Below, one piece after another: positions 1 to 9,564 of a DNA stretch of 64,000 nt. Numbering within the stretch: position 1 is the stretch's first letter; each line of letters starts with the position of its first letter. Location: contig NZ_CP027806.1 in NCBI RefSeq assembly GCF_003353065.1, positions 4,050,501 through 4,114,500 of the forward strand, given 5' to 3'. The position numbers were made by a program, and so were the translations under genes. The notes below the pieces were generated by a model that made no database searches, was not told where the DNA came from, and worked only from the letters and a program-made list of their open reading frames with translations. Source of the stretch: Cyclonatronum proteinivorum (lineage in GTDB: Bacteria > Bacteroidota > Rhodothermia > Balneolales > Cyclonatronaceae).

Positions 1-2190
1 CGTTTTAGAACAAGCATCCCAAACCCGCTATGACATCGTCACAGCCCCGGCTTGGTAGATCCCGAATAATGCTGCACAATACTTCGAGATAGTTATAAAA
101 TGGCCGATACGCAGCATTTCCGGGATGACACGCTCGGGGGTTGGGGTGAGAAAAATAATCGCAATTACCGTCTGTCTCTATTCCATTCGCTTGCTTCGCA
201 CACCCTTTCCGTTCGGAACCCCCAACCTTGCACAACGAGATCCTTCGACTCCGCTGCGCTTCGCTCAGGATGACAGGCCTCCCTTCGCGACAAACGGCGC
301 GGCTCGCCGCGCCGGGGGTTTTCAAAACGACACTGTCATCCTGAGCGCAGCCGGAGCGCAGCGAAGGCGAAGTCGAAGGATCTGGGGATAGGGATTTGGA
401 GGTTGGCTCGGACGCTCTGTTATTCCGTACTGTGTTTATGTTCCGGAGTCCCGAAGTCACGTCCCCCCTACGGCGTCATCCCGGAAACGCCCACGCAGGT
501 GCCTGATAAATATCAGCATAGCGCACCGGCGTTATCCGGGGTCTACCAGTTTTGATGTGTGTCAATGCCGGTAGCAGGCATCCACGTGCGGGTTTAGCCG
601 TTTTAGAACAAACATCCCAAACCCGCTATCACACCGCGACAGCGACAGCTTGGTAGATCCCGGATAATGCTGCACATAACTTCTCGATGGTAAAAAAATG
701 CCGATACGCAGCATTTCCGGGATGACGCCGTTGGGGGTTGGGGTGAGAAAAATAATCGCAATTACCGTCTGTCTTTATTCCATTCGCTTGCTTCGCACAC
801 CCTTTCCGTTCGGAACCCCCAACCCTGCACAACGAGATCCTTCGACTACGCTGCGCTTCGCTCAGGATGACAGGCCTCCCTTCGCGACAAACGGCGCGGC
901 TCGCCGCGCCGGGGGTTTTCAAAACGACACTGTCATCCTGAGCGGAGCCGGAGCGCAGCGAAGGCGAAGTCGAAGGATCTGGGGATAGGGATTTGGAGGT
1001 TGGCTCGGACGCTCTGTTATTCCGTACTGTGTTTATGTACCGGAATCCCGAAGTCACGTCCCCCCTACGGCGTCATCCCGGAAACGCCCACGCAGGTGCC
1101 TGATAAATATCAGCATAGCGCACCGGCGTTATCCGGGATCTACCAGTTTTGATGTGTGTCAATGCCGGTAGCAGGAATCCACGTGCGGGTTTAGCCGTTT
1201 TAGAACAAGCATCCCAAACCCGCTATGACATCGTCACAGCCCCGGCTTGGTAGATCCCGAATAATGCTGCACAATACTTCGAGATAGTTATAAAATGGCC
1301 GATACGCAGCATTTCCGGGATGACACGCTCGGGGGTTGGGGTGAGAAAAATAATCGCAATTACCGTCTGTCTTTATTCCATTCGCTTGCTTCGCACACCC
1401 TTTCCGTTCGGAACCCCCAACCCTGCACAACGAGATCCTTCGACTACGCTGCGCTTCGCTCAGGATGACAGGCCTCCCTTCGCGACAAACGGCGCGGCTC
1501 GCCGCGCCGGGGGTTTTCAAAACGACACTGTCATCCTGAGCGGAGCCGGAGCGCAGCGAAGGCGAAGTCGAAGGATCTGGGGATAGGGATTTGGAGGTTG
1601 GCTCGGACGCTCTGTTATTCCGTACTGTGTTTATGTTCCGGAGTCCCGAAGTCACGTCCCCCCTACGGCGTCATCCCGGAAACGCCCACGCAGGTGCTTG
1701 ATAAATAATACCATAGCCCACCGGCGTTATCCGGGATCTACCAGTTTGGGTGTGTGTCAATGCCGGTAGCAGGCATCCACGTGCGGGTTTAGCCGTTTTA
1801 GAACAAACATCCCAAACCCGCTATCACACCGCGACAGCGACAGCTTGGTAGATCCCGGATAATGCTGCACATAACTTCTCGATGGTAAAAAAATGCCGAT
1901 ACGCAGCATTTCCGGGATGACGCCGTTGGGGGTTGGGGTGAGAAAAATAATCGCAATTACCGTCTGTCTTTATTCCATTCGCTTGCTTCGCACACCCTTT
2001 CCGTTCGGAACCCCCAACCCTGCACAACGAGATCCTTCGACTACGCTGCGCTTCGCTCAGGATGACAGGCCTCCCTTCGCGACAAACGGCGCGGCTCGCC
2101 GCGCCGGGGGTTTTCAAAACGACACTGTCATCCTGAGCGGAGCCGGAGCGCAGCGAAGGCGAAGTCGAAGGATCTGGTAATGGGGATTGG
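1..2190. repeat. Tandem array of ~598-bp nested inverted-repeat units
   Basis: Three full units (1-598, 599-1195, 1196-1793) and a partial fourth (1794 to about 2190) lie head to tail; the array probably continues left of the window. Each unit carries three pairs of inverted arms in nested order: an outer pair (GGTAGATCCCG... near 51, and its complement near 525-548), a middle pair (TTTCCGGGATGAC near 116, GTCATCCCGGAAA near 476), and an inner pair (GATCCTTCGACT...CAGGATGACAG at 240-275, mirrored at 330-382). Units 1 and 3 share variants, as do 2 and 4, so a ~1.2-kb dimer was duplicated. The inner arms are of the widespread REP-like type that yields spurious peptides containing VILSEAQRSRR. 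No coding function is supported. Confidence 0.9.
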
Positions 2191-2217: not shown

Positions 2218-3162
2218 CTAAACCGAGAACACATTCAGCAGGAAGAGCCTGATGAAGCGGTCGTTCCAGTGCCAGGTGTGGCGGGCGTCGGGGTGCAGGG
2301 GGATTCGGTTGAAGCCTGCGGTAATGCCGTGCTCGCGCAGCAGGGCGGTGAAGTATTTGCAGCGGTCGTGATTGCCTTCCTGCCCGTCGCCGGCGGCACT
2401 GCGAATCCAGAACATGGTTTCCTGTATTTCTTCGAGGGTTACGGGGTCAGCGTAACGAATCAGCTCGGCAGGGTTCCAGGGGGCGAGATTTTCCGGGGAG
2501 CGTTTTTCGGCCGGACAGAGGGCGGCGTCGGGTACAGCTGATTTCAGCCAGATTTCGTCAGGGGCATTGGTTCGGATATCTGTTTGACCGTCGAACATGA
2601 ACAGGCCGTCATAAATGCCCGCGTGATCAAGATAACCGGGGAAGGCCGTTGCAAGCAGCGCAGCCGTATAGCCGCCCAGGGAAAAACCCGCGGCCATCCG
2701 GATACCGCTGCCCAGCTTTTTCTGATAACGGGCTTCCAGGTAGGGAATGAGGTCAAGCGTAAGAAAATCCCAAACCTGCCCGGTGCCGAGACCGTCCCGC
2801 ATGTCCTGCGGCGGCACCAGGGTGTTAATCCCCATGCTGTGCTTTTTGCCGTCAAGGGAGGTCAGTCCGGGAATCACCGCCATCACCGGCGGAATTTCGC
2901 CGGACACAATCAGGGCATCGAGGTCTTCAATGGTCGTTGTTTCGCGGCTGTCGTCTTCATTGATGTAAACAAACTCCCGCTCATGTCCGCGGAACAGGTA
3001 CAGCAGGTGCATGTCCGACACGTTCCGCATATTGGGCGGCTCATACACAAATACCGTGCGGGAAACCCCGAGCGCGCGCGACCGAAACGGCAGCACCCGC
3101 AGGGCACCGCTGAGGGTGCCTTTGTGGCGTGCCAGAATGTTTCGGTGCAGCGGAGTGATCAT
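2218..3162 (-). CDS. Putative esterase, alpha/beta-hydrolase (esterase D-like)
   Basis: A 314-residue cytoplasmic protein with no signal peptide. It has the nucleophile elbow GFSLGG (Ser161) and a C-terminal ARHTWHW segment that can supply the catalytic His (295 or 298); the acid may be Asp259. The layout matches the putative-esterase family (PF00756) that includes S-formylglutathione hydrolases and enterochelin esterases. It is the last gene of a five-gene minus-strand cluster and starts 23 nt after the amidotransferase-like gene. The context suggests it hydrolyses an ester or amide on a metabolite made by the neighbouring ATP-grasp ligases (inference). The substrate is unknown. It is distinct from the second, shorter esterase at the other end of the cluster. 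Confidence 0.8.
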   Translation of the reverse strand: MITPLHRNILARHKGTLSGALRVLPFRSRALGVSRTVFVYEPPNMRNVSDMHLLYLFRGHEREFVYINEDDSRETTTIEDLDALIVSGEIPPVMAVIPGLTSLDGKKHSMGINTLVPPQDMRDGLGTGQVWDFLTLDLIPYLEARYQKKLGSGIRMAAGFSLGGYTAALLATAFPGYLDHAGIYDGLFMFDGQTDIRTNAPDEIWLKSAVPDAALCPAEKRSPENLAPWNPAELIRYADPVTLEEIQETMFWIRSAAGDGQEGNHDRCKYFTALLREHGITAGFNRIPLHPDARHTWHWNDRFIRLFLLNVFSV

Positions 3163-3185
3163 GCTTCAGCACGTTTCAACAGGAT

Positions 3186-4046
3186 TTAGCGGACGCCCGC
3201 AAGAGACTCTACCAGTTCGGGACGGTTGTTTTTCACCGCCCGCTTCAGAAAACCGGGGATGATATGCTTGTGCGTTCGCTCGATGTAGCCGGGATCTTTA
3301 AGGCCGGCAATGATGGAATCATACTTGGCCTGTCCGAACTCATCAATGATTTTCGTTTTTTGCTCTTTGGTCGAAAAGTGATAGAGCATCCCTTCAGGAT
3401 CCGCTTCGGGATGAAACTGCAGCGCGATCATTTCTTTCAGCAGACGGATGGCCATCACCGCGCGCTCCAGCTTCACATGCGGACGCTCTTTTTCAAGGCA
3501 CAGAATTTGGGCTCCCATCTCATCCATCAGATCCTTGCGGGGTTGCAGTACCTGCCAGTCCCGGAAATCAGCAGCATGAAACGGATTCGGCAGGTCTTTG
3601 AACATGGGGTCAACCGCCCCTACTTCGGTCTGATGAACAGGATATACGCCAAATGACTGTTTCTTCCGAGGCTTCACTTCCGCAAAATTGAAATGACGCG
3701 CAACCATCTGATACGAATGGCAGATGAACATAGCATACTTCGGGGGCGTCAGCTTGGCCGAATTATAGTGCCAAAGATCATCCAGAAAGTTGAAATAGTT
3801 GATCTCCCAGGTTTTGCCTTCACTGTCGAAAGGACTCCCCGGGCCACCGGTAGAAATATAAATATCGAAAGAAAGGTCCGGAATTTCGCCCTTGGCTCTC
3901 GCGTCAAATACAGTGAACTCAATGGGTACGCCGTAATAAGCGCCGGAAGATTCGGTAATCAGGTTCTTGATACAGCGCATACCCTGATTGGGCACGCCGT
4001 TGTATAAATCAATAATGGCTGCACGCAGCGGCTTGGTTGAAATCAT
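3186..4046 (-). CDS. Class I glutamine amidotransferase-like protein
   Basis: A 286-residue stand-alone protein with the class I glutamine amidotransferase signature. The nucleophile Cys109 sits in FICHSYQM, where the usual GxCxGxQ elbow is altered, and the His-Glu pair is in QFHPEAD (His212, Glu214), so the full triad is visible. A GGPGSP oxyanion-type loop lies at about 67-72. It could release ammonia from glutamine for a partner ligase, or act as a gamma-glutamyl hydrolase as some relatives do. No synthetase domain is fused, so the two adjacent ATP-grasp proteins are the obvious partners. It lies 81 nt after the permuted ATP-grasp and 23 nt before the terminal esterase. The substrate is not deducible. 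Confidence 0.8.
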   Translation of the reverse strand: MISTKPLRAAIIDLYNGVPNQGMRCIKNLITESSGAYYGVPIEFTVFDARAKGEIPDLSFDIYISTGGPGSPFDSEGKTWEINYFNFLDDLWHYNSAKLTPPKYAMFICHSYQMVARHFNFAEVKPRKKQSFGVYPVHQTEVGAVDPMFKDLPNPFHAADFRDWQVLQPRKDLMDEMGAQILCLEKERPHVKLERAVMAIRLLKEMIALQFHPEADPEGMLYHFSTKEQKTKIIDEFGQAKYDSIIAGLKDPGYIERTHKHIIPGFLKRAVKNNRPELVESLAGVR

Positions 4047-4127
4047 AAAAGTAAAGCAAGTTATTCAAAGCAAAGCCGGTTACAGCGGAGGGCTGCAACC
4101 GGCTTGTTAAACGGTATCAGTAAGGTA

Positions 4128-5483
4128 CTACAAATATCGGGCAATAAACAGCGGGATACTGCCGCCGCCCGCCGTCACATTCGCAAGGTTACTCGGCGAT
4201 GTGCGGGTGAGACAGCCGCTCATCATCGGACCATTCAGGTACGGATCAAAATCAATCACCGTATTGACCGATTCCCAGTTGCCTTCAATGGGTAACAGGA
4301 ACGGCTGCCGGCCGATTTCAATCACTTCCTGCACCACATAATCAAGCTGCAGCGCGTGACTAATAGCGGTTTCCCAGGTATCCTGCGATTCCTGAAAACC
4401 CAGCACAACGCCATGACCGCCGTAGTCGTCGTTTGGCTTCATGATGAAGGAATCCTTATTCCGGCGAATCAGCTCCAGCAGATCCTGATTGGCCCCGCGG
4501 TAGCGCACCTTCGAAGGTTTCAGCTTGCGGGTCCAGGGGATGTGATCGCGTATCGCCTTCAGCTCGGACTGATCCAGCACATGGTTGTAGTCCGGATCGG
4601 TGAGCAGGGCAAAAATCATTTTCTTGTGCACCAGTTTCGAGCGGAAGGAGTTCAGGTAGCAGGTTTTCTGCGCCTTGTAGCCTTCCAGGTATGCCTGACA
4701 GTCGTACTGAATTTCGAAGAATTCATTCATCAGCAGGCGCCGGTACAGAATGTCGATTTTTTTGCCGTTGGCATAAATCCAGCCGTCGCGGCACTCCAGC
4801 TCGCGCGGGTCGCAGATTTCGGCTTCGTAGCCCAGACGCTCCAGATATTCCTTGATGAGCACAAACTCCGGATACGTCGGAACATCGAGATGATCCACGA
4901 TCGCGAAGCTTGGCTTTTCCTTTAGCCCGCCAAACTCTTCGTGATAAATGCGGATCAGCCCCTGAAAGGTGTGCTCCAGCGGCGACACAAAGCGGACCGG
5001 GTAGCGCTCAATAAATTTCTGAAAGATGGGCAGCTTCTGATAAATATCCGCCATCTCTTTCATATAGGCGATACCTGCCGGAACTTCCGCGTTCAGCTCT
5101 ACGAACTTGAAGGAGTTATCCGTCAGAAAAGAATCCAGCCGCGCTGTAGCCGACATCCGGATCACGTTGGTCGGGATGGCGCACAACTCGATCTCGTACG
5201 GTGTCAGGCCCAGATGATCGAGCGTTTTGCGGCTGTTGAAAAACGTCGCAGCAATCTTCAGAATCGCCTGACGAATCACATAGACCGTATCGTGAATGTA
5301 CTGAAAGGTTCTCTCGCCCATCACCATAGGCCGCAGCGACTGCGTAAGCGGACGATCCCCAAACATCACATTTTGTGTGCGCTGCATTTCCAAAAGCATT
5401 TCATGCTGTTCGGTAGCCGCGCTCAGATCGGAAGCAATCAGGTGATTATAGTAATCAACTGCGGGTTTACTTGGACTTAGCAT
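4128..5483 (-). CDS. Circularly permuted ATP-grasp ligase-like protein
   Basis: A 451-residue protein from the ATG at 5483, which overlaps the upstream stop by 17 nt; the longer reading frame from 5552 would run far into the upstream gene. The C-terminal third has ATP-grasp features: FIMKPNDDYGGHGV (Lys349 and a glycine loop), QEV at the adenine-binding strand and a late AGGGSIPLF segment, after an N-terminal half resembling circularly permuted ATP-grasp proteins. An earlier FVELNAEVPAGIAY stretch resembles the displaced metal-binding N-E element of that group. Such enzymes make amide bonds through acyl-phosphates (family knowledge). Translational coupling to a conventional ATP-grasp gene suggests two successive ligations on one product. 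The substrate is unknown. Confidence 0.75.
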   Translation of the reverse strand: MLSPSKPAVDYYNHLIASDLSAATEQHEMLLEMQRTQNVMFGDRPLTQSLRPMVMGERTFQYIHDTVYVIRQAILKIAATFFNSRKTLDHLGLTPYEIELCAIPTNVIRMSATARLDSFLTDNSFKFVELNAEVPAGIAYMKEMADIYQKLPIFQKFIERYPVRFVSPLEHTFQGLIRIYHEEFGGLKEKPSFAIVDHLDVPTYPEFVLIKEYLERLGYEAEICDPRELECRDGWIYANGKKIDILYRRLLMNEFFEIQYDCQAYLEGYKAQKTCYLNSFRSKLVHKKMIFALLTDPDYNHVLDQSELKAIRDHIPWTRKLKPSKVRYRGANQDLLELIRRNKDSFIMKPNDDYGGHGVVLGFQESQDTWETAISHALQLDYVVQEVIEIGRQPFLLPIEGNWESVNTVIDFDPYLNGPMMSGCLTRTSPSNLANVTAGGGSIPLFIARYL

Positions 5484-6414
5484 CAGGCTCCAGCACTCCG
5501 TTGGCGGTAAACTGCGGGGTCTTGCGTTTTTCGAGTGCTTTCTCGACGGCAAATTCGGTCATGTGCTTCACAATCCAGTTGAAATTCTCCACACCCACAG
5601 AGTAGTAATCCGCATCCGGGGCCGGGTTCATGAAATCAATCGCATATGGAATGCCGTCGCGGATGGCGAACTCCACCGTATTCATGTCGTAGCCAAGCGC
5701 CTTGCAAAGCGCAAGCACATCGCGCTCTATCTTCTTCATCAGCTTCTCGGGCACGGGCTCGTGCGACACATCATAATAGCGGCGGTGCGGCTCGGCGTCC
5801 GGGTTGTAGCGCATAATCTGCGTATAGCGGCGGCCAATGCCATAGCACCGGAAATAATCTTCAAACTCAATGCCTTCCTGCAGCATCATACAATCCTGAC
5901 CCGACTCATTGTAGGCCTTAAAAAAGTCGTGCGGGTTGTTGCACTTGGTCACCCCGCGCCAGCCGCCCCCGTCAAAGGGCTTCAGGAAGGACGGAAAACC
6001 GATGTACTCAAAAACACCGTCCCACTCAATCGGGAACTTAAGGTTGCGGAAAGAAGTCGATTCTGTATTTGGCGGGTGCTGATTGTGCGGCAGAATCACC
6101 GTTTTCGGCACGGCAACGCCGGCCTGTTGCGCAATGATGTTATCGATAAACTTATCGTCAGCGCTCCACCAGAAAGGATTGTTGATGATATAGGTGCCTT
6201 TCAGCGACGCCCACTTCAGGTACGAGCGGTAAAACGGCACTTCATGCGAAATACGGTCGATGATGACATCATAGCCGGGGTCGGCATCCATGTTAACGGC
6301 TTCGAGCTGAATAAACTCCGCCTTCACCTGCGAGCCAAATTCCTTATTGATGTTATGTACCAGCGCGTCGGGGAAAGTGGTTTCCATCCCGCGAATAATT
6401 CCGATTTTTTTCAT
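5467..6414 (-). CDS. ATP-grasp ligase
   Basis: A 315-residue ATP-grasp protein of D-Ala-D-Ala-ligase-like or RimK-like layout. The N-terminal part (about 1-85) is a pre-ATP-grasp fold. FLKPFDGGGWRGV holds the ATP-binding Lys145 and glycine loop, the LQEGIEF strand follows, and the Mg-binding end includes Glu249 and AIDFMNPAPDAD (Asp260, Asn263). All catalytic positions expected for an active ligase are present. It overlaps the permuted ATP-grasp gene by 17 nt. Together they could activate one or two carboxylates for amide-bond formation. Neither an acyl-carrier nor a ribosomal precursor peptide gene was seen nearby, which points to a small-molecule or protein-tailing substrate (inference). 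Confidence 0.8.
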   Translation of the reverse strand: MKKIGIIRGMETTFPDALVHNINKEFGSQVKAEFIQLEAVNMDADPGYDVIIDRISHEVPFYRSYLKWASLKGTYIINNPFWWSADDKFIDNIIAQQAGVAVPKTVILPHNQHPPNTESTSFRNLKFPIEWDGVFEYIGFPSFLKPFDGGGWRGVTKCNNPHDFFKAYNESGQDCMMLQEGIEFEDYFRCYGIGRRYTQIMRYNPDAEPHRRYYDVSHEPVPEKLMKKIERDVLALCKALGYDMNTVEFAIRDGIPYAIDFMNPAPDADYYSVGVENFNWIVKHMTEFAVEKALEKRKTPQFTANGVLEPDAKSK

Positions 6415-6500
6415 AATCTGTTGTAGTTTGTAGTTGATAAAAAAGGCAATCGTTGTCGTTGTGTGTCCGTCGAAGGGATAAAATCAGTAGCCTGAAGCTG

Positions 6501-7214
6501 TCACAACAGGTGCTTGACGATCATTCCGCGCCATGCCGGCCAGTCGTGAATAATGCCGGGGCTCCAGACATCCAGTTCGTACCAGATACCTTTCTGATAC
6601 AGAATATGACAAAAGTGTTTGGTTGCATCAAGGCAAATATCATGATCGCCCACCACAAACCGCAAATCGTTACGACGGATTTGCTCCAGATGGTCATGGT
6701 TGTGCATGTTAGGCATGTAGGCCACCGGATTATTGAAGTAGATGTTATCACCTTCATGCCCGTCAGCAAATGCGGAAATATCATACTTACCGCTCATCGC
6801 AATCAGCTTGCGGAAAGTCCACGGGTTCTTCAGCGCAAAATTCGCGGCATGATACGCCCCAAAACTTGCCCCGGTCGTAATGATATAGCGGTTCGGATTC
6901 TTGTTGTTGATCAGCGGCACAACTTCATCCAGGATATAGCGCTCATATTGCTCATAGCGGGCAAAACGCACATGCGGGTGCACATTGCGGTTATAAAAGC
7001 TCTCGGCATCGACCGAATCGAGGCAGAAAAACTGATTCTGACCGCTCTCAATTTTGCCGCGCACGGCTTCAATCATCTTAAAATCTTCCCACTCATAAAA
7101 GCGGCCATTGCTTGAAGGAAAAACAAGTACAGGAGTTCCGCTGTGTCCGAAAACCAGCATGTCCATCTCACGGCCCAGACTCGGACTCCACCATTTAACA
7201 AATTCTCTGTGCAT
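6501..7214 (-). CDS. Small esterase-like alpha/beta-hydrolase
   Basis: A 237-residue protein and the first gene of the minus-strand amidoligase cluster. The nucleophile elbow is GASFGAY (Ser117), the acid may be Asp190 or Asp192 in VVGDHD, and the C-terminal His223 is in GIIHDWPAW. No signal peptide is visible. Its short form and the HREFVKWWSP start fit the COG4947-type esterase group within PF00756. It precedes the ATP-grasp gene by 86 nt. Two different esterases bracketing two ligases and an amidotransferase suggest a synthesis and turnover pathway rather than a general lipase. An interrupted inverted repeat lies just upstream of its start. Confidence 0.8.
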   Translation of the reverse strand: MHREFVKWWSPSLGREMDMLVFGHSGTPVLVFPSSNGRFYEWEDFKMIEAVRGKIESGQNQFFCLDSVDAESFYNRNVHPHVRFARYEQYERYILDEVVPLINNKNPNRYIITTGASFGAYHAANFALKNPWTFRKLIAMSGKYDISAFADGHEGDNIYFNNPVAYMPNMHNHDHLEQIRRNDLRFVVGDHDICLDATKHFCHILYQKGIWYELDVWSPGIIHDWPAWRGMIVKHLL

Positions 7215-7814: not shown

Positions 7815-8594
7815 TCAGAAATCGCGGGTTTCGGTGCGCCAGAGGTAGAGGCCGGCAAAGAGGAAGCCCCAGAGGACGGAGAAGGTTGCTTTGAGGGTGT
7901 CGGGACTCACGACGGAGGCGCCGCCGGCCATGGCGCGAAAGGGGCTTGGAATCAGGCCGTTCAGGCTGTTGACCGGCAAGTAGGCGGTTAAGCCGCTCGG
8001 ATCTATCCAGCGGATGATTCCTTCAATGAAGAGGCTCCAGAACAGCACGATCAGAAATGAGCCGGCCGTATTACCCACGAAGCTGTTTATGAACAGGGCC
8101 ATCATCATAAAAACAAAAAAGTACAGCACATAGGTCAGCATAAAGGGCGCAACCGCACTCAGGTCAGCCGTGCTGATGGCGATTTCCCGGCTCCATGCAA
8201 GTCCGTAGGTTGCAAGCGTGAGCAGTAAAATGGCCGCAAGGCTGAACAGGCCCGCAAGGCTGACATCCGAGCCGACAAGCTGCCGGCGGCTGAGTCCGTC
8301 GAGCAGGTACTGCCGACGGATTCCGAAACGGAAGTCGCGGTTTACGAAGCTGACCATCAGCAGAACAAACAAATGCACGCCGTAGCTGCCGGCGAACAGC
8401 AGGTAGTGCCAGAGTCCGGCGCCGTCGAGCGCAAAAAAGGCGCCCATATCAAGTTGCTCTTCGTTAATGGTAATCTGAGCAGAAAAGAAGACGCGGAAGA
8501 TGAGCGGCACGAGGGCGGTGTACAGGGCGAGCACCAGCCAGAAGAGCGGGTACAGGCGCAGCTTGAGCAGCTGTACGACAATCAGGGCTTTCAC
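7815..8594 (-). CDS. ABC-2 type transporter permease
   Basis: A 259-residue integral membrane protein with about six hydrophobic segments (roughly 14-36, 64-82, 108-130, 148-170, 176-195, 235-252) and the layout of ABC-2 family permeases. It begins with GTG, whose GTGA overlaps the stop of the ATPase gene, so the two are translationally coupled. With the adjacent ATPase it forms a two-gene exporter. The substrate cannot be read from the sequence; relatives export drugs, lipids or polysaccharides, or act as peptide-immunity pumps. The C-terminus is short and polar, with no extra domain. No terminator is evident after the stop. Confidence 0.8.
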   Translation of the reverse strand: MKALIVVQLLKLRLYPLFWLVLALYTALVPLIFRVFFSAQITINEEQLDMGAFFALDGAGLWHYLLFAGSYGVHLFVLLMVSFVNRDFRFGIRRQYLLDGLSRRQLVGSDVSLAGLFSLAAILLLTLATYGLAWSREIAISTADLSAVAPFMLTYVLYFFVFMMMALFINSFVGNTAGSFLIVLFWSLFIEGIIRWIDPSGLTAYLPVNSLNGLIPSPFRAMAGGASVVSPDTLKATFSVLWGFLFAGLYLWRTETRDF

Positions 8595-9526
8595 GGGCGG
8601 TTCTCCAATGCTTTGAGAAATGAGGTTTCGAGCCGGTCATGCACGTGCTGCAGGTGCGCAAGATAGATCTCATGTCCGCTCAGAAAGCGGTTCAGGGCCG
8701 CGGGATCGGCGCCGGGCTTCAGGCGAACCTGTACCCGGCCCGGCAGCAGCCCTGTGGCCGCTTCCGGCTTCGCCCCAAACGAATCGAGCAGGGGGAACAG
8801 GGCCGGCAGCTGTTCCGGCGCAACGCCCAGCTCAACTAACATGCCGGCGGCTTCTCCGCTTCCGCCAGCCGAATCCGCGCGCATTTCGCGGACATCAAGC
8901 AGCCGCCCCTGCTTGAGGATGGCGGCATGGGTGCAGACTTTTTCAACTTCATCCAGCAGATGACTTGCCAAAATAATCGTGCGGCCTTCCGCGGCAAGCT
9001 GCAGGATGAGGTGCCGGATTTCGATGATCCCCTGCGGATCGAGTCCGTTGGTGGGTTCATCGAGGATGAGCACGCGCGGGTCGGAAAGCAGCAGGGCCGC
9101 AATACCGAAGCGCTGTTTCATGCCGAGAGAAAACGCCTGCAGCGGACGGTCGGCGGCCTGCGACAGGCCTACTTTTTCGAGCAGGCGCGGAATTTCGCTG
9201 CGGCGGTGCGCTTCACCGAGCCCCCGCAGGCGCGCGATATGGCTGAGCTGTTCCGCGGCGCGAAGCTTGGGCAAAAAGTTTGGTTTTTCAATGATGGCCG
9301 CAACGTCCGGAGATGGCGTGTTTTCGGGAACCGATTGCCAGATGAAGCTGCCGGACGTGCGGTGCGCGAGTCCGGTAATGAGGGATAGCAGGGTCGTTTT
9401 CCCGCTGCCGTTGGGCCCAAGCAGGCCGAAGACGGCACCCTGCGGTATGGCCATAGATACCCCGTCAAGGGCACGGATACCGCCATAGTTTTTGGTCAGA
9501 CCGGAAAGTCTGAGAACTGATTCCAT
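8591..9526 (-). CDS. ABC transporter ATP-binding protein
   Basis: The ATPase of a two-gene ABC-2 exporter, 311 residues from the ATG at 9526; the frame extends to 9559, but a promoter-like TACCTTTG at 9557-9564 makes the shorter form more likely. It contains Walker A LLGPNGSGKTT (about 35-45), the signature SLGMKQR, Walker B VLILDEPTNG and the H-loop ASH. A C-terminal extension after about residue 215 carries a regulatory-like domain, typical of CcmA/NatA-type ATPases. Its stop overlaps the permease start by 4 nt. The role is to energise export of an unknown substrate. Confidence 0.85.
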   Translation of the reverse strand: MESVLRLSGLTKNYGGIRALDGVSMAIPQGAVFGLLGPNGSGKTTLLSLITGLAHRTSGSFIWQSVPENTPSPDVAAIIEKPNFLPKLRAAEQLSHIARLRGLGEAHRRSEIPRLLEKVGLSQAADRPLQAFSLGMKQRFGIAALLLSDPRVLILDEPTNGLDPQGIIEIRHLILQLAAEGRTIILASHLLDEVEKVCTHAAILKQGRLLDVREMRADSAGGSGEAAGMLVELGVAPEQLPALFPLLDSFGAKPEAATGLLPGRVQVRLKPGADPAALNRFLSGHEIYLAHLQHVHDRLETSFLKALENRP

Positions 9527-9556
9527 AGGGATGTTATGTGAAATTAAGCTGTGGAT

Positions 9557-9564
9557 CAAAGGTA
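9557..9564 (-). promoter_or_regulatory. Possible Bacteroidota-type -7 element for the ABC operon
   Basis: The minus strand reads TACCTTTG, matching the TAnnTTTG -7 consensus, 30 nt upstream of the ATPase start at 9526. No good -33 TTG lies at the expected distance, so support is weak. Confidence 0.35.

Follow-up and report, generated by a model that had tools for sequence, protein, structure and literature searches.

Here we report that five adjacent genes on the minus strand of a 64,000-nucleotide (nt) stretch of the Cyclonatronum proteinivorum genome (assembly GCF_003353065.1, contig NZ_CP027806.1, positions 4,050,501 to 4,114,500; the whole stretch is referred to below as the window) represent one variant of a larger gene module, a system that is real, widespread and uncharacterised. 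The genes, named here E1, G1, CP, GAT and E2 in the order in which they are read, encode two esterase-type hydrolases (E1 and E2), two ATP-grasp ligases (G1 and CP) and a class I glutamine-amidotransferase-like protein (GAT). On balance, we consider it probable that they make up the larger share of a cytoplasmic pathway in which two or three ATP-dependent ligases (G1, CP and, in the fuller set, an additional GCS2-type enzyme) would synthesise a small amide of the gamma-glutamyl type, and that the hydrolases trim or recycle it. The arrangement of the five genes is far beyond chance: Balneolia and Rhodothermia retain the gene order, and genomes that carry one of the genes tend to carry the others. 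The original prediction, made from the letters of the window, had proposed that the five genes form one functional set, and this proposal is borne out.

To compare gene neighborhoods, a genome collection was scanned with G1, yielding 376 relatives, of which 80 were kept. Across Balneolia and Rhodothermia the order E1-G1-CP-GAT, often followed by E2, is conserved. Acidobacteria, Armatimonadota, and the remaining Bacteroidota typically have GCS2 after E1-G1, then GAT or an M29-type peptidase, which occupies the place of GAT in many Acidobacteria, and then a ligase of about 390 amino acids (family c19, also called CPL). The commonest multi-gene arrangements among the fetched loci are E1-G1-GCS2-GAT-CPL (17 cases), E1-G1-CP-GAT-E2 (11), and E1-G1-GCS2-M29-CPL (9), with sub-sets elsewhere, and genome G143 with the order E1-G1-CP-GCS2 forms a bridge between the variants. 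CP and CPL are homologous and collinear (hhalign E-value 1.9e-7, 337 columns), so all variants of the cluster share G1 and a probable permuted ATP-grasp ligase. The original prediction had proposed a search for relatives in Bacteroidota, Balneolota, and related lineages; the system does occur there, and its range is far wider, related gene sets being present in roughly one in three of the Bacteroidota genomes sampled and also in many Acidobacteria. The flavobacterium Dokdonia sinensis is among the carriers of the module. Plasmid-borne relatives of the cluster were sought and none was found. In Acidobacteria loci of the Pyrinomonadaceae type (e.g., L047, L050, L058, L065, L066, L068, and L071), G1 stands amid unrelated genes; E1 is missing from the neighborhood, and a CP-type ligase lies several kilobases off on the opposite strand.

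Among 146 genomes of the window's class, Rhodothermia, full-length G1 is encoded in 25 and CP in exactly those 25; the same genomes contain GAT in 23 cases (it is lacking in G140 and G143), E1 scoring above 300 bits in 24, and E2 in 15, and none of these genes is found in the other 121 genomes. In other Bacteroidota genomes, the number of which we estimate at about 179, G1 was found in 70 and c19 in 72, with 69 genomes common to both, and GCS2 in 67, of which 64 also encode G1. Several of these genomes carry the module genes far apart, and linkage alone therefore does not explain the co-occurrence. A quick tree of 134 G1 proteins mostly follows taxonomy, with 9 label changes where shuffling gave 62.7 on average, and the CP-variant proteins from Balneolia and Rhodothermia make up one group of 25, apart from G143; the long branches of L121, L122, L127, and L128 are unreliable. 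Judged from this tree, the history of G1 fits an old and mainly vertical inheritance.

The five genes are not the complete system, as a GCS2-type ligase belongs with them in Balneolales. The original prediction of a five-part set holds in so far as the set is real, but it missed this partner and did not separate E2 as a lineage-specific accessory. In C. proteinivorum, a GCS2 (YbdK-type) ligase is encoded about 107 kb from the cluster (G000:C1:4164557-4165657). It scores 512 bits against the NCBIfam carboxylate-amine ligase model (cut-off 371) and keeps the G-h-E-x-E signature as given in PMC2588565; its structural relative is YbdK (1r8g). GCS2 proteins scoring above 500 bits are present in all 10 Balneolales genomes with the cluster and in G143, and in no other of the 146 genomes of the class. 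The gene is unlinked to the cluster in Balneolales and linked to it in most other Bacteroidota and many Acidobacteria.

The Pfam and NCBIfam matches of G1, CP, and GAT are weak; their families were assigned by profile and fold comparison. G1 matches the ATP-grasp and RimK models weakly; against the RimK alpha-L-glutamate ligase family TIGR00768 it scores 28.9 bits with a cut-off of 143.4, and thus resembles this family without being a member. The AlphaFold model of G1, with a mean predicted local distance difference test score (pLDDT) of 85.9, has its best matches in the Protein Data Bank (PDB) among ArgX, LysX, the D-Ala ligases (Ddl), and RimK, with E-values from 1e-14 to 1e-12. Lys88, Lys145, the Gly149-151 loop, Glu248, Asp260, and Asn263 are kept in 139-142 of 142 distinct homologs (31-100% identity). 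By its fold, nucleotide lysines, and acidic and Asn metal ligands, as predicted from the model and the sequence, G1 classifies as an ATP-grasp ligase. CP falls below the cut-offs of both PF14403 (24.3 bits, cut-off 32) and PF04174 (18.9 bits, cut-off 23.1), and its profile finds a sole sequence relative in the PDB, the putative glutathionylspermidine synthase 3n6x (6e-8). The order of its motifs appears to be permuted, with the E-x-N motif (Glu129-x-Asn131, near the N-terminus) located N-terminal of the Lys/Gly motif. Glu129, Asn131, Lys349, Asp352, and Gly355-356 are invariant in all 39 CP homologs; Asp411 is found in 37 of them and Asp413 in 36, two matches ending before these residues. The ligase residues are thus intact in both alignments. 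A further ATP-grasp protein, possibly a fourth ligase in some lineages, is encoded near the module in five loci (L127, L150, L151, L152, and L156), that of L156 (10345-11553, minus strand) being a protein of 402 amino acids with 30.1 bits against PF13535 (cut-off 27).

GAT scores 20.8 bits against PF00117, just below the cut-off of 22.8, which the Dokdonia GAT exceeds. The nearest solved fold to its model (pLDDT 91.9) is Arabidopsis gamma-glutamyl peptidase 1 (1.2e-14), ranking ahead of GMP-synthetase and other amidotransferase subunits. The triad Cys109-His212-Glu214 named in the original prediction is present in all 43 homologs, and a GGPG motif of GAT lies at residues 67-70. Its triad, its fold, and the absence of a synthase partner domain place GAT among the class I glutamine amidotransferase (GATase)-like proteins, and the fold comparison makes it a probable gamma-glutamyl peptidase. 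A role as the ammonia-supplying subunit of a synthase was considered and rejected, since the closest structural matches of GAT are stand-alone enzymes, no synthase subunit accompanies it, and it alternates with the M29-type peptidase. In the fetched loci, GAT occurs in 47 and the M29-type peptidase in 23, and no locus combines them; this suggests that they are interchangeable in a trimming role.

Both esterases exceed the PF00756 cut-off of 22 bits (E1, 33.9 bits; E2, 45.6 bits) and have a serine nucleophile elbow. In E1, the putative nucleophile Ser117 (G-A-S-F-G) is kept in 81 of 84 homologs, Asp192 in all 84, and His223 in 82. In E2, which also has His295, the nucleophile Ser161 (G-F-S-L-G-G) is present in all 13 homologs, and its relatives in the PDB include feruloyl esterases (1.4e-16). 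Active-site residues are thus near-invariant in all five proteins (13-142 homologs per protein), and the family calls of the original prediction for the esterases, the two kinds of ATP-grasp protein, and the amidotransferase-like protein agree with the PF00756 scores, profiles, and folds. A second, more distant E1-family esterase is encoded elsewhere in the genome (G000:C1:2723319-2724005, minus strand, 167 bits).

Several amide ligases, one of them of the GCS2 type, together with a thiol hydrolase resembling gamma-glutamyl peptidase 1 (GGP1), fit a small gamma-glutamyl-type amide that is assembled step by step before being trimmed or recycled. Peptide ligases with linked genes frequently carry out consecutive ligations (PMC4431377). 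In the fuller set of Balneolales, with three ATP-dependent amide ligases (GCS2, G1, and CP) and the hydrolases, GCS2 would activate a carboxylate, which by analogy would be the gamma-carboxylate of glutamate, and join it to an amine; the LysX/RimK/Ddl-like G1 and the glutathionylspermidine-synthetase-like CP would then attach two further groups. GAT, as a gamma-glutamyl peptidase-type thiol hydrolase, would remove or recycle the gamma-glutamyl group, with the M29-type peptidase as its presumed substitute in many Acidobacteria, and E1, along with E2 or E3 in some lineages, would act as a serine hydrolase on the precursor or product, cleaving or transferring an ester, thioester, or amide. We infer the order of these steps, the glutamyl substrate, synthesis rather than breakdown, and the part played by the esterases.

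Several observations weigh against this biosynthetic reading. No substrate can be read from the sequence, and the pathway could also run in a catabolic direction. The usual ATP-grasp acid-to-Asn motif is E-x-N, and that of G1 is D-x-x-N, an unusual spacing. The GCS2 step is not universal, since 14 cluster-bearing Rhodothermia genomes have no high-scoring GCS2. In 33 loci, mostly from Pyrinomonadaceae and from Bacteroidota genomes with unlinked genes, G1 has none of the listed partners nearby on its strand. An E1 homolog (L115:11755-12471, minus strand) has Glu in place of the nucleophilic Ser (GYEFGAYYS) and is perhaps a non-hydrolytic or altered enzyme. Finally, the Fisher values calculated for the co-occurrence ignore shared descent.

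A more specific form of the same pathway, which we regard as unlikely, though the least so of the rival readings, is the synthesis of a thiol or polyamine conjugate resembling glutathione or glutathionylspermidine, in which GCS2 would make gamma-Glu-Cys or a similar dipeptide, G1 would add a residue, CP would join the result to an amine, and GAT with E1 and E2 would process the conjugates. The relationships of GCS2 to YbdK, of CP to 3n6x, and of GAT to gamma-glutamyl peptidase 1 all point this way, and the E1 profile also reaches S-formylglutathione hydrolase (7yvt) at 2.1e-4. The GCS-type, second, and glutathionylspermidine-synthetase-like ligases are found together in 10 of 10 cluster-bearing Balneolales genomes and in the majority of other Bacteroidota. 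However, the likeness is at the superfamily level only, the strongest relatives of the esterases are feruloyl-type and other esterases, and the 14 other Rhodothermia genomes mentioned above have the cluster without a high-scoring GCS2. The title of PMC6282198, moreover, argues that derivatives of bacillithiol are more widespread than any other bacterial thiol, so direct evidence would be required before a second thiol is accepted.

The original prediction had offered an amide-linked metabolite and a peptide tag on a protein side by side; the former is supported as the probable product, while the latter fares worse. In a tagging system, G1 would modify a protein or small carrier in the manner of RimK or LysX, CP would extend the tag, and GAT and the esterases would remove it. 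This we consider improbable, even though ArgX in complex with LysW and RimK in complex with RpsF are among the best fold matches of G1. LysW was found in none of 30 genomes with the module, in a search whose controls were positive, and no small open reading frame (ORF) in the intergenic gaps (86, 81, and 23 nt) or in the upstream stretch shows conservation outside the genus; the GCS2 and permuted glutathionylspermidine-synthetase-like partners also suit small peptides better. Pairs of a ligase and a class I amidase occur in the breakdown of gamma-glutamylated putrescine, and the GAT fold would suit gamma-glutamyl hydrolysis, but the use of amines or amides as nutrients through glutamylation by a ligase, processing, and release by GAT is the least probable reading, as the module has no recurrent oxidase, dehydrogenase, aminotransferase, or uptake transporter beside it and two or three different ligases exceed the need of such a route.

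The module has features in common with several known systems. Its ligase classes (GCS2-type, second ATP-grasp, and permuted ATP-grasp) parallel those of glutathione and glutathionylspermidine synthesis (GCS, glutathione synthetase, and GspS), whereas G1 is nearest to LysX, ArgX, Ddl, and RimK and not to glutathione synthetase, and the module has a separate GAT and PF00756 hydrolases in place of a fused amidase. With the LysX/ArgX-LysW route of lysine and arginine synthesis it shares the fold and probable ligase chemistry of G1, but it lacks LysW, and no lysine or arginine genes recur with it. GAT has the same fold and Cys-His-Glu triad as plant GGP1 and stand-alone class I GATases, at about 17% identity. 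GCS2 of C. proteinivorum is a relative of the YbdK family carboxylate-amine ligase, but falls in another NCBIfam group, NF010039 ("carboxylate-amine ligase"). Iyer, Abhiman, Burroughs and Aravind are reported to have predicted, in 2009 (doi 10.1039/b917682a) and by comparative genomics, non-ribosomal amidoligase operons, which are of the same general kind as the module in that several ATP-dependent ligases are encoded with peptidases or hydrolases. One peptide-tagging system among them reportedly combines a permuted ATP-grasp, a permuted GS-like ligase, an NTN peptidase, and an alpha-helical protein; no match to an NTN-hydrolase peptidase or the alpha-helical domain protein was found among the module proteins scanned, and no such gene recurs nearby. 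In line with the original prediction, which could name no described pathway with these five parts, no characterised pathway or description matching the gene set was found in the literature searched, though the 2009 prediction paper may list the set. Ligases combined with hydrolases for a non-ribosomal amide are a known kind of system, and the present combination and its reach appear undescribed within that literature.

The layout of the genes is given in Table 1. An ORF check of the window confirmed the five genes, their positions and common strand, and the 17-nt overlap of G1 and CP described in the original prediction. CP starts inside G1, with GGAG upstream of its ATG, and a longer frame with a TTG start extends to position 5552. 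Promoter and terminator scans gave signal no greater than in shuffled sequence. Upstream of E1 are putative ABC permease and ATPase genes; a role of this pair in export was considered and set aside, as the permease recurs upstream only in loci of the same genus (L002, L004, L005, and L007) and is probably a plain neighbour. An anti-phage defence role was likewise rejected, as six proteins gave no PADLOC match (E-value 0.01). Just downstream of E2 lies a tandem repeat, in which one part of the unit is 95-99% alike among copies and another alternates between 99% and 74%; ORFs within it look like translation of the repeat rather than genes.

Table 1. Genes of the cluster and neighbouring features, in window positions.
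Feature	Positions	Strand	Length and predicted product or description
E1	6501..7214	-	237 amino acids; alpha/beta-fold serine hydrolase, PF00756; first gene
G1	5467..6414	-	315 amino acids; ATP-grasp carboxylate-amine ligase, LysX/ArgX/RimK/Ddl-like fold
CP	4128..5483	-	451 amino acids from ATG; circularly permuted glutathionylspermidine-synthetase-like ATP-grasp ligase
GAT	3186..4046	-	286 amino acids; stand-alone class I glutamine-amidotransferase-fold thiol hydrolase
E2	2218..3162	-	314 amino acids; second PF00756 esterase; last gene; lineage-specific accessory
ABC pair	7815..9559	-	putative ABC permease and ATPase genes
Tandem repeat	1..2185		unit of about 597 nt, present four times head to tail

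Full-length G1 occurs in 25 of 146 genomes of the class and in about 70 of about 179 Bacteroidota genomes sampled outside it, and Acidobacteriota and Armatimonadota also have the set. Such close co-inheritance, which extends to unlinked genes, usually points to a single product. More tentatively, a small, previously undescribed gamma-glutamyl peptide or peptide-amine conjugate made by GCS2, G1, and CP and turned over by the GGP1-like peptidase might have a general function as cofactor, redox buffer, or solute in much of Bacteroidota and Acidobacteriota. A metabolite common to large groups of environmental bacteria may await discovery.

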